Notes under the pieces: model-generated
What the model saw: the letters and a program-made list of their open reading frames with translations, nothing else
Databases searched by the model: none
What the model was told of the DNA's origin: nothing
Assembly: GCA_031285965.1 (NCBI GenBank)
Contig: JAITVD010000033.1
Coordinates: 1 to 64,000 of the forward strand
Length of the DNA stretch: 64,000 nt
Direction: 5' to 3'
Source of the DNA: Azoarcus sp.
GTDB taxonomy: Bacteria > Pseudomonadota > Gammaproteobacteria > Burkholderiales > Rhodocyclaceae
Made by a program: the position numbers and the translations under genes
Shown here: in pieces, positions 13,640 through 17,424 of the stretch
How positions within the stretch are numbered: the stretch's first letter is position 1
Layout of the letters: every line of letters starts with the position of its first letter

Positions 13640-14119
13640 ATGAACGCTCCCGCCCCCCAAGAACTCCAGCGCATCGCCCTTTTGCTCGAAGCCGAATCCA
13701 GCCAGCTTAAGAAATTCATTGACCTGCTTGAACGCGAAGAAGCCATCCTCGTTTCCGGGAATACGGATGCCCTGCTCCCAATTACCAAAGAAAAAGACGA
13801 ACGCTATCGGCAATTGCAGCAACTCCACGACGACCGCTCGATGCTGGCTTCCCGCTACCGCCGTGGCAGGGGCGACACCGCAATGCGCAGCCTCTTTGCC
13901 GACATGCCCAAGGCGCTTGCCCGATGGGATGAAGTGCTCAGCCTTGCCGCCCACGCGAAAGAACGCAACCACGTGAACGGCCAGCTCATCACCCGCCACA
14001 TGCAGCACAACCAAGCCGCCCTTTCTGTGCTGCTCTCCGCCGCCGACCACCCGCAGTTCTACGACGCGGGCGGCCACTCCCGCCCAAGCGGCGGAGGCCG
14101 GATGCTCGGCAGCGCGTGA
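13640..14119 (+). CDS. flgN: Flagellar export chaperone FlgN
   Basis: Cytoplasmic chaperone for the hook-filament junction proteins FlgK and FlgL. The 159-residue product is largely helical: a long N-terminal helix (ELQRIALLLEAESSQLKKFI, LLEREEAIL), a KEKDERYRQLQQL segment and the tail RHMQHNQAALSVL. Sequence conservation in this family is low; the call rests on size, helical pattern and position after flgM. No clear Shine-Dalgarno is visible. Confidence 0.88.
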   Translation: MNAPAPQELQRIALLLEAESSQLKKFIDLLEREEAILVSGNTDALLPITKEKDERYRQLQQLHDDRSMLASRYRRGRGDTAMRSLFADMPKALARWDEVLSLAAHAKERNHVNGQLITRHMQHNQAALSVLLSAADHPQFYDAGGHSRPSGGGRMLGSA

Positions 14120-14214
14120 GCGGTTGGCGCTTGGGCTGTTTGCCCGATGCCATTCACATTCCTTTGTGCCTGATACAATGAGTTGTGCGTATAGCGTGCT
14201 TTTAGGAGGCAACT

Positions 14215-14445
14215 ATGCACAAACGGATGACCATCACCCTTGATGAGAGCGTCTATGAGGGTCTTTACCGGACGGTCGGCAAGCGCCGTATGAGCCAGTT
14301 CATTGAAGACCTGCTGCGCCCGCACGTCGTGGGTACGTCACTTGATGACGGCTACGGGGCGATGGCGGCGGACAAAACCCGTGAGGCCGAGGCGGCGGAG
14401 TGGCGCAACGTGCTCGCCGGAAATATGGCCGATGCTGTGCGGTGA
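14215..14445 (+). CDS. mazE: MazE/PemI-like ribbon-helix-helix antitoxin
   Basis: A 76-residue protein with an N-terminal ribbon-helix-helix (RMTITLDESVYEGLYRTVGK, then MSQFIEDLLRPHV) and an acidic tail for toxin binding. A perfect AGGAGG stands before the ATG; a weak promoter (TTCACA at 14153, TACAAT at 14174) is possible. The stop codon overlaps the start of a MazF-like reading frame at 14432, the classical antitoxin-toxin coupling. That toxin gene is interrupted, so the antitoxin appears intact but without an active partner here. Confidence 0.85.
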   Translation: MHKRMTITLDESVYEGLYRTVGKRRMSQFIEDLLRPHVVGTSLDDGYGAMAADKTREAEAAEWRNVLAGNMADAVR

Positions 14446-14520
14446 AGTGTGGTGGGTCGAGTTCGCCCCGTCAGTCGGCAGCGAGATATGCAAGACGCGC
14501 CCTGCCATCATCCTGAGCAA

Positions 14521-15254
14521 TAGAGGAGAATCCCCTGTGAGAAAGCCTTTATCTTGTTTGGCATTGCTGGTTGCTGTTATGGCAAACAGCGAGTCTAGTT
14601 TTTTCTCAATAGCTTTTGCGGCGGATAGCGCACCAGAATTAGCGGCAAATGCGCCGCAATGGCGGGAACAAAAGCAGGATGCGGCAAGTTTCGCCTCTGA
14701 CTGGCTGACATATCTGGATAACGGGCAGTATGCCAGTGCCGTAGCCAGCTACACGGTTGACGGCAATCGGGCGGAATTGAAAAAACGCCTGCAATCCATA
14801 CGCGGCGGTATTGGCACGTTGTCTTCACGCAGCTATGTCGAGGCAACCGTATTCGCTGCGGCCTCCGACGATTCGGAACATAAAATCAGAGTAGTCTTTG
14901 TTACAAAATTTTCAGGTAAAACAGTAGCGGAAACCGTAGAGGTTCTCTTATGGCATAAACCGCCTGTTGTGCTTGTATATACGATTGATGAAAATCTTCC
15001 ACAAATTGAACAAAAACATCAGTGGTAGTCAATGAGGCTAAATGATAACCGGAGCGTCATGCTTGAAGGTATGAAATAACCCATTCTTTGCAAGCGCCCG
15101 CGCCTTTGGCGATTTCGCCCTATGGCCGAAATCGTCCAGAACTGACCGCTGTAACCCTGAAAAAATGCGGGTATCAGAGCGGGTAAAATAATTTCAAAAA
15201 CATTTTTTATACTGTAAATTCAGCATATTAGACTAATTTCTGCGCCCCGAGCAA
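14521..15254 (+). mobile_element. 734-bp insert within mazF (unclassified)
   Basis: The segment is bounded by direct repeats GAGCAA (14515-14520 and 15249-15254). It is more AT-rich than its surroundings and contains one gene (14537-15028) plus about 225 noncoding bases. The noncoding part holds an inverted repeat (GGCGATTTCG at 15108 with CGAAATCGTCC at 15127). I see no transposase and no clear terminal inverted repeats. Exact excision restores the mazF frame, so insertion with a six-base target duplication is the simplest reading. Confidence 0.7.
14537..15028 (+). CDS. Secreted DUF4019-like protein
   Basis: A GTG at 14537 follows a GAGGAGA ribosome site by seven bases. The product (163 aa) has a signal peptide (CLALLVAVMANSES to about AFAADS) and a mature part resembling DUF4019: DWLTYLDNGQYASAV, RLQSIRGGIGTLSSRSYVEA and VVFVTKFSGKTVAETVEVL. 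The biochemical function of DUF4019 is unknown. The gene lies wholly inside the insert splitting mazF. The frame is open upstream into the mazF N-terminal piece, so a hybrid protein could be made, but the internal start is far better supported. Confidence 0.75.
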   Translation: MRKPLSCLALLVAVMANSESSFFSIAFAADSAPELAANAPQWREQKQDAASFASDWLTYLDNGQYASAVASYTVDGNRAELKKRLQSIRGGIGTLSSRSYVEATVFAAASDDSEHKIRVVFVTKFSGKTVAETVEVLLWHKPPVVLVYTIDENLPQIEQKHQW

Positions 15255-15528
15255 CAACGCAGCAAACTGGAACTTGGCGCGGGTGGGGGTTGTACCCATG
15301 ACCAGCAACACGGAACGAACCTATCCCGGCGAAGCCGTCGTCACAGTCGGTAGCCAGCAAAGCAAGGCAATGGCCGATCAGATCATGGCAGCCGACAAAA
15401 CCCGCCTTGCCGTACTGCCCAAGACGAACATGCGGGCGGTCGAAGAAACCATCAAGGTGCATCTGCCACTGCCGCTGTCGCGATTCGCTGAAACTTCCGT
15501 CTTTCAGAACTGCGCGGGGCAATGGGAT

Positions 15529-17424
15529 TTACCCCGCGCCAAGGAGAACAGCCAGCCGATAAGTCAGGAACGCCGCCAGATACGCCAGCCCAAACAAATA
15601 CCCCGCCATAATCAGCGGAACTTTCCAGCCCCCTGTTTCACGCTTGACGGCGCCCAGCGTCGCAAAGCAATGCGGCGCAAAAACGAACCATGCCAGCATC
15701 GCCAGCGCCGTCGCCAAAGACCATGAACCGATAAGGTGGTCTTTCAGCACCCGCTCCGCCGCCTCTTCGTCGTCCGCCTCGGCGGAAAGGGAATACACCG
15801 TCCCCAGCGAACTGATGACCGCCTCACGCGCCGCCATCGTCGGAATCAGCGCCGCGCTGATCTGCCAATTGAAGCCAATAGGCTCGAAAACAGGCGAAAT
15901 GGCTTTGCCTATCTGTCCGGCAAAACTGTATTCGATTGCGGGTTTGTCGGCATTTTCCGGCGCTGCCGGATAGCTGGACAAAAACCAAATCAGCACGGTT
16001 GAAATCAGGATGATGCCGCCCACGCGCTGGACGAAAACTTTCGCCCGCTGCCACAGCCCGATGGCGACGTTGCGCACGGTCGGCAGGTGATAGACGGGCA
16101 GCTCCATCATCAACGGGCGCAGCAAGCGCCCCACAGCGGTAAAACGTTTGAGCAGCCAAGCCTTGAGCATGCCGCCGAATATGCCCGCAAGATAAAGCGC
16201 GAACAGTACCAACCCCTGCAACTGGAACATGCCGAGTACTTCCCGCTGCGGAATGAAGGCTCCGATTAGCAGGGCATAGACAGGCAGCCTCGCCGAGCAG
16301 GTCATCAGCGGCACAATCAGGATTGTGACCAATCGGTCACGCGGATGCCCAATCGTGCGCGTCGCCATGATGCCGGGAATGGCGCAGGCAAAGCCCGAGA
16401 GCAGCGGAATGAACGAGCGCCCGGACAGGCCAACGCTCCCCATCAGGCGGTCGAGCAAAAAGGCGGCGCGGGGCAGATAGCCCGATTCTTCCAGAACGAG
16501 GATGAAGAAAAAGAGAATCAGGATTTGCGGCAGAAACACCAGCACCGCGCCCGCTCCGGCAATGATGCCGTCGACGAGCAGGCTCTTCACCCAACCATCG
16601 GCAAGATGGCTGCCCGCCAGTTCACCCAATCCGGCAAAGGCATCCTCGATCCAGCCCATCGGCGCTTCAGCCCACGAAAATACCGCCTGGAAAACCAGAA
16701 ACAGCAGGGTCGCCAGCAGGAACGGGCCCAACACGGGATGCAGCGTGAAACGGTCGATGCGGTCGCTCACCGTGTGCGGAATGATTTCGTCGAGGTCGAG
16801 TTTTTGCAGAATGCTGCGCACGGCGGCATGGTCGCCCTGCCCGTCCGCCTGAACGCCTCCCGTTTTGGGCGGGACGGCAGCTTTCCACACGCTTGGGCTG
16901 TCCAGCTTCGCCAGCAGCGAGGCAATGCCGTCCTTCTGCACCGCGACCGTGCTGACGACCGGCATGCCCAGTTCAGCAGCCAGCGCGTCAGGCTCGATGC
17001 GAAAGCCGCGCTTTTCGGCGAGGTCAGCCATGTTGAGCGCCACGATGCAGGGCAAGCCCAGCCGCTTGATGGCCAGCGCCAGCCGCAGGCTGCGCCGCAG
17101 GTTGGCGGCATCGACAACGCAAACGACGAGATCGGGGCGCTTCTCGCCCGCCGACTGCCCCATGAGGACATCGCAGGTCACGCGCTCATCGGGCGAGGAC
17201 GGATAAAGGCTGTACGCACCGGGCAGATCGAGCACACGCACCGACTTGCCGGACGGCGTCACGAATCTTCCTTCCTTACGCTCGACCGTCACGCCCGCAT
17301 AGTTGGCGACTTTCTGCCTGCTGCCGGTCAAGAGGTTGAAGAGCGCCGTTTTGCCGCAGTTGGGATTGCCGACCAGCGCCATCAGCGGCCCGCCCGGAAC
17401 AAGATGGACGACGGCCTGATTCAT
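15529..17424 (-). CDS. feoB: Ferrous iron transporter FeoB
   Basis: Inner-membrane Fe(II) permease with an N-terminal G domain. G motifs are GNPNCGKTALFN, DLPGAYSL and ALNMADL; a gate/membrane region follows with repeated Gate domains (RSFIPLLSGFACAIPGIMA, PTMAAREAVISSLG). The product has 631 residues, a shortened C-terminus compared with the 770-residue E. coli protein, as in many betaproteobacteria. It overlaps feoA by four bases (ATGA). Its 3' end meets the split mazF. Confidence 0.96.
   Translation of the reverse strand: MNQAVVHLVPGGPLMALVGNPNCGKTALFNLLTGSRQKVANYAGVTVERKEGRFVTPSGKSVRVLDLPGAYSLYPSSPDERVTCDVLMGQSAGEKRPDLVVCVVDAANLRRSLRLALAIKRLGLPCIVALNMADLAEKRGFRIEPDALAAELGMPVVSTVAVQKDGIASLLAKLDSPSVWKAAVPPKTGGVQADGQGDHAAVRSILQKLDLDEIIPHTVSDRIDRFTLHPVLGPFLLATLLFLVFQAVFSWAEAPMGWIEDAFAGLGELAGSHLADGWVKSLLVDGIIAGAGAVLVFLPQILILFFFILVLEESGYLPRAAFLLDRLMGSVGLSGRSFIPLLSGFACAIPGIMATRTIGHPRDRLVTILIVPLMTCSARLPVYALLIGAFIPQREVLGMFQLQGLVLFALYLAGIFGGMLKAWLLKRFTAVGRLLRPLMMELPVYHLPTVRNVAIGLWQRAKVFVQRVGGIILISTVLIWFLSSYPAAPENADKPAIEYSFAGQIGKAISPVFEPIGFNWQISAALIPTMAAREAVISSLGTVYSLSAEADDEEAAERVLKDHLIGSWSLATALAMLAWFVFAPHCFATLGAVKRETGGWKVPLIMAGYLFGLAYLAAFLTYRLAVLLGAG

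Follow-up and report, generated by a model that had tools for sequence, protein, structure and literature searches.

A mazF toxin gene of Azoarcus sp. interrupted by a 734-bp insert that carries an integrase-type attachment-site repeat

How did a mazF toxin gene of Azoarcus sp. come to be cut in two, and what kind of DNA lies between its halves? The question is raised by the window, a stretch of 64,000 nucleotides from one contig, in which a 734-bp insert divides mazF at 14520/15255. All parts of this locus lie on the + strand. An intact mazE-like antitoxin gene encoding 76 aa (14215-14445) overlaps the start of mazF, the N-terminal piece of which (14432-14520, MLCGEVWWVEFAPSVGSEICKTRPAIILSN) aligns with residues 1-30 of MazF homologues. 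The C-terminal piece (15255-15477) begins NAANWNLARVGVVPMTSN and matched PF02452 in a profile search. The insert, counted with the second copy of a short direct repeat, occupies 14521-15254.

The direct repeat, GAGCAA, occurs once at each junction, at 14515-14520 on the left and 15249-15254 on the right. It is exactly 6 bp long, as the left copy is bordered by T on both sides and the right copy by C. When the repeat is set aside and the two MazF pieces are aligned with an uninterrupted paralogue in the same genome, one covers its residues 1-30 and the other starts at residue 31, with neither gap nor overlap, indicating that no mazF residues were lost at the junction. GAGCAA falls in the codons for the Ser-Asn pair conserved in MazF, where 29 of 76 intact homologues have the identical hexamer and the remainder still encode Ser-Asn. 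We estimate that an exact 6-bp match at both borders would arise by chance in about one insertion per thousand. An earlier, sequence-only reading had placed the mazF halves and the GAGCAA copies at these coordinates, had joined the halves into a continuous gene and had seen neither a transposase nor a terminal inverted repeat. The sequence and the ungapped alignments to the paralogue and other intact homologues agree with it on each point, and comparison of the insert ends with each other over 30, 50 and 80 bp gave scores like those of shuffled sequences. Its conclusion that an insertion into a once intact mazF disabled the toxin also stands, whereas its description of the insert as a small non-autonomous element with a six-base target duplication is not settled by these data; it had overlooked both a gene and an integrase-type repeat within the insert.

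Intact mazF homologues joining the two halves, on which that reading depended, were found readily. The paralogue (L007, contig C41) is an uninterrupted mazEF pair whose mazE is 79% identical to that of the window and whose MazF is 65% identical over the C-terminal piece. Intact pairs were also present on six plasmids, from Escherichia, Sulfuricystis, Azotobacter, Limnohabitans, Hydrogenophilus and Acidithiobacillus; the mazE homologues on plasmids are annotated 'addiction module antitoxin' and lie directly 5' of PemK/MazF genes, and a 14-bp overlap between mazE and mazF is common to the window and all six plasmid pairs. Of 90 surveyed loci that have this antitoxin, 76 had a full, ungapped mazF, four ran off a nearby contig end and the others were truncated or carried stops; the window was the only one with mazF split at the GAGCAA point.

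No continuous PemK-type open reading frame follows the MazE-type gene in the window. Besides the broken frame, the C-terminal piece lacks four residues (12 bp, near 15405) relative to the paralogue, and the stop codon present in the paralogue reads TCG (15478-15480). The N-terminal piece carries the changes R3C and R20C, of which the first affects a residue that is Arg in 76 of 76 intact homologues. The window mazF is thus a pseudogene of the MazF/PemK family that is still decaying and, judged from its sequence, it cannot make toxin because the gene is cut in two by the 734-bp segment. The dN/dS ratio relative to the paralogue was about 0.19 for mazE, and about 0.2 for mazE and both mazF pieces alike; therefore most of the divergence predates the loss of mazF function, and the interruption is a comparatively late event. 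The module sits in the flgN/feoB intergenic region, and no mazEF was found after flgN in the members of the genus that have the flgN neighbourhood, within the stretches examined, some of them short. The whole mazEF module is an islet. It resembles mazEF/pemIK type II toxin-antitoxin systems in gene order, gene overlap, a toxin of the PemK family and the presence of an intact paralogue, but differs in that the toxin gene is interrupted and decayed and the antitoxin alone remains. The retained MazE may still regulate its own promoter or cross-react with the intact paralogue.

Taken alone, the window locus is another inactivated toxin gene, and two genomes of the same genus, G006 and G019, have likewise lost the toxin and kept the antitoxin. 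At the G019 locus (L006, contig C71, 868-1100) a solitary mazE-like gene remains and mazF is gone immediately past the overlap. The G006 locus (L005, contig C10), from the same genus, is a second case of an antitoxin without an intact toxin, and there the 8-bp unit AACCTGCA is repeated in a long tandem array at about 1045-1180, 3' of mazE and its truncated mazF. An insertion in G006 at the same site as in the window was considered, since the BLAST alignment stops at GAGCAA, and was rejected: mazF continues for about 30 bp beyond that point, indicating an independent truncation.

The insert has a G+C content of 46.6%, compared with 59.3% for the window. One base into it lies a ribosome-binding-site-like sequence, AGAGGAG (14522-14528), and 16 bp into it a gene of 163 codons begins with GTG (14537-15028). 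The third-position G+C content of this gene is 0.445, against about 0.74 for its neighbours. Its product has a signal-peptide-like N-terminus and is probably secreted. The protein matched DUF4019 (PF13211) with E=2.6e-4 and 21.8 bits, below the curated cut-off of 26.5, while profile comparison by hhalign gave a probability of 93.9% (E=1.5e-7, 84 columns). The gene is thus predicted to encode a divergent DUF4019 protein, an assignment that falls below the Pfam cut-off alone and is clear by profile comparison. In addition to the N-terminus, it shares with DUF4019 proteins the aligned motifs WL..LD.G.Y and IRG..G and the later strands, but it is only about 25-30% identical to them and no close relative was found. 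No other sizeable open reading frame of the insert matched a family, and a single-sequence structure prediction of the protein reached a pLDDT of 37. DUF4019 is sparse, being present in 4 of 121 genomes of the host family and 34 of 399 in the order.

No relative of the protein was found in other genomes of the genus, nor by tblastn-type searches in genome contigs, viral contigs, plasmids and phages; a weak match in one member of the order (L008) is probably spurious. At the DNA level, matches in 60 relatives and in 399 family genomes did not go beyond 24-70 bp, and none was found in plasmids or phages. A 77% match in G017 (L002) extends over 67 bp only and is probably due to chance. A search for further copies in the genome, as suggested by the sequence-only reading, found none; the insert is single-copy. 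Composition, the sparse distribution of DUF4019 and the lack of protein relatives in the genus mark the insert as foreign DNA, by all appearances in its sequence. It is known from this genome only, a draft of 90 contigs that is 97.8% complete and probably metagenome-assembled.

No sigma-70-like promoter was found in 14000-15700, a weak negative; for this reason the DUF4019-like gene, which occupies the position of mazF, probably depends on the mazE promoter. The frame of the mazF N-terminal piece runs open into the DUF4019-like gene (14432-15028), which would happen by chance about once in three, and a fused MazF N-piece/DUF4019-like polypeptide is possible.

The tail of the insert bears GCGGGTATC-N3-GCGGGTA at 15167-15185, part of a 24-bp tandem repeat, AAAATGCGGGTATCAGAGCGGGTA (15162-15185), which searches of family genomes and IMG/VR identified as a kind that occurs where Arm-DNA-bind_3 tyrosine integrases have their attachment sites. 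The underlying pattern, GCGGGTATCnnnGCGGGTA, was matched by 64 IMG/VR contigs, although with its 16 fixed bases tens of chance matches are also expected in IMG/VR by our estimate. In 16 of the 64 (among them L165 and L169, which almost duplicate each other) the repeat precedes a tyrosine integrase and never varies in orientation; the distance, counted from the matched start, is 43-80 bp, or about 290 bp in two cases. Every contig with such an integrase shows the repeat. Both of the two integrases tested against Pfam contained the domains Arm-DNA-bind_3, Phage_int_M and Phage_integrase. Copies of the motif without an adjacent integrase were located ahead of trpG, nqrA and dinB, at 44-54 bp from the start codon, as expected for right ends adjoining host genes.

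One of these copies came from a DNA search of the insert against 399 family genomes, which returned a 24/24 match to 15162-15185 in another family member, G512. There the repeat (contig C216, 18568-18591; L159/L162) is flanked by an XRE-family gene and nqrA, the open reading frames listed nearby include no integrase, and this copy is a candidate integrase-less islet or scar. In L207 and L214 from IMG/VR and in L167 the repeat precedes dinB-like and trpG-like start codons by 44-54 bp, suggesting that the 5' ends of these genes are integration sites for this integrase family. Two copies in close succession before the integrase of L168 (12230-12540) suggest elements integrated in tandem.

The geometry of the right end could be compared with one complete element, the 13-kb L192, which has a 20-bp core repeat, CTTCCGTTTCAACGTTTGAG, at both ends. 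At the left end of L192 the motif stands between core and integrase, 117 bp inward of the core; at the right end a second copy, oriented like the first, is separated from the core by 53 bp. The order in the window is cargo gene, motif in the L192 orientation, a 63-bp spacer (15186-15248), GAGCAA and host gene. Because the repeat shares its orientation and has a similar spacing to the core as in L192, the right end of the insert looks like an attR half-site, and the right GAGCAA may be the crossover core of an integrase. Six bases are within the overlap length of tyrosine recombinases. GAGCAA is more likely such a core than a transposase target duplication. On the other hand, the direct repeat at the two ends of the insert is only 6 bp, compared with 20 bp in L192, no second copy of the arm repeat that would mark attL was found in the insert at its left end or elsewhere, and no integrase gene was found in the insert. 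The integrases detected in the same genome with an integron-integrase model are not of the Arm-DNA-bind_3 kind. With integrase and left arm missing, the insert must be either a mini-element, a derivative left by deletion, or an island end that was captured.

We therefore propose integrase-mediated recombination into mazF at GAGCAA as the best explanation, with a probability of about 0.5. A mazEF module would have entered the flgN/feoB intergenic region by horizontal transfer, and its mazF would then have been interrupted by a foreign segment consisting of a promoterless DUF4019-like gene and one attachment-site arm of a P4-type (Arm-DNA-bind_3) tyrosine integrase. The integrase would have recombined at a secondary site, with GAGCAA in the Ser-Asn codons serving as crossover overlap; such a crossover would leave exactly one copy at each end without a transposase or inverted repeats, and would give the attR-like order of element, arm repeats, 63 bp, core and host gene. 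A small unit may have been recombined by an enzyme supplied in trans, or the enzyme may have been lost with an internal deletion. With mazE intact, the DUF4019-like gene would now stand in the place of mazF, with transcription presumably starting at the mazE promoter. Secondary-site integration of integrase elements, for instance SGI1 and SXT, is established, and island integrases use imperfect secondary sites (PMC2297512).

Three other origins were weighed against this one. The end of an integrated island, comprising the DUF4019-like gene, the attR repeat and some host flank, could have been put into mazF by break repair or transformation, in which case GAGCAA would be a filled-in staggered break or microhomology, the repeat a passenger and the junctions unrelated to any integrase. 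Such illegitimate capture explains the absence of the left arm and of the integrase better than integrase action does, and fits a single-copy insert without inverted repeats and without relatives sharing its ends; but the repeat is oriented as expected for the right border between element and host, and the junction lies where a core is expected (63 against 53 bp), a spacing that would have to be coincidence. We regard capture as possible, if doubtful. Alternatively, a complete integrase element may have integrated at GAGCAA and then lost the left arm, the integrase and most of its cargo through an internal deletion ending near the left core. This would account for the missing parts while both cores were kept and for a right end like that of L192; it is nevertheless improbable: if the AGAGGAG/GTG start is original, only about one base separates the core from the point where the deletion must begin. 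The view of the sequence-only reading, a non-autonomous DDE transposon with a passenger gene and a 6-bp target duplication, agrees with the exact direct repeat and the absence of residual target loss. Yet transposons with inverted repeats were rejected by the end-to-end comparison, which was no better than shuffles at any of the three lengths, one copy in the genome and none in 399 family genomes give nothing to indicate a repeated, MITE-like element, and the insert carries a protein gene; we consider this origin very unlikely.

An integron gene cassette at a secondary site would share with the insert a single promoterless gene, a short leader and a non-coding tail. It is largely refuted, and we give it hardly any weight, since no integron integrase scored above the cut-off in the genome, the junctions show no GTT in cassette orientation, and the tail is not attC-like, folding little better than shuffled sequences (z -1.6). 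A self-splicing intron of group I or II was rejected as well, there being no Rfam match up to E=1. Between the broader classes, the insert probably belongs with integrating mobile elements, as a stray piece or miniature form of one, and not with transposons.

With islands and prophages of P4-type tyrosine integrases (PF13356, Phage_int_M, Phage_integrase) the insert shares the tandem attachment-site repeat, which it carries at its right end, the orientation of that repeat, a similar core distance at the right end and insertion beside or into a host gene. It differs from these islands in lacking an integrase and a left arm repeat and in size, as they are 10 kb or more with a core of about 20 bp and the insert is 734 bp with a 6-bp core. 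Like cis-mobilisable elements, which are flanked by attL and attR and integrase-less, the insert has no recombination genes of its own, and the documented recombination of SGI1 at sodB/purR and of SXT at pntB, at poorly matching sites, offers a likeness to its insertion; compared with all of these the insert is far smaller, no parent element was identified and its mobility is putative. We think it unlikely that P4-type integrases mobilise the 734-bp, single-gene unit in trans as a minicircle by way of its one-armed attachment site, which would make it a gene cassette dependent on the integrases of genomic islands and not on that of an integron.

As a gene disruption the window case is ordinary, though informative in its origin. 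Its useful part is the GCGGGTATC-N3-GCGGGTATC tandem repeat, which marks the places where a family of tyrosine integrases with an arm-binding domain has its attachment sites and can flag integrase-less islets or scars missed by ordinary annotation, such as the insert in the window and the copy upstream of nqrA in G512. If tiny one-armed units of this kind were mobile, the integrases of islands would serve to carry cassettes of one gene each.
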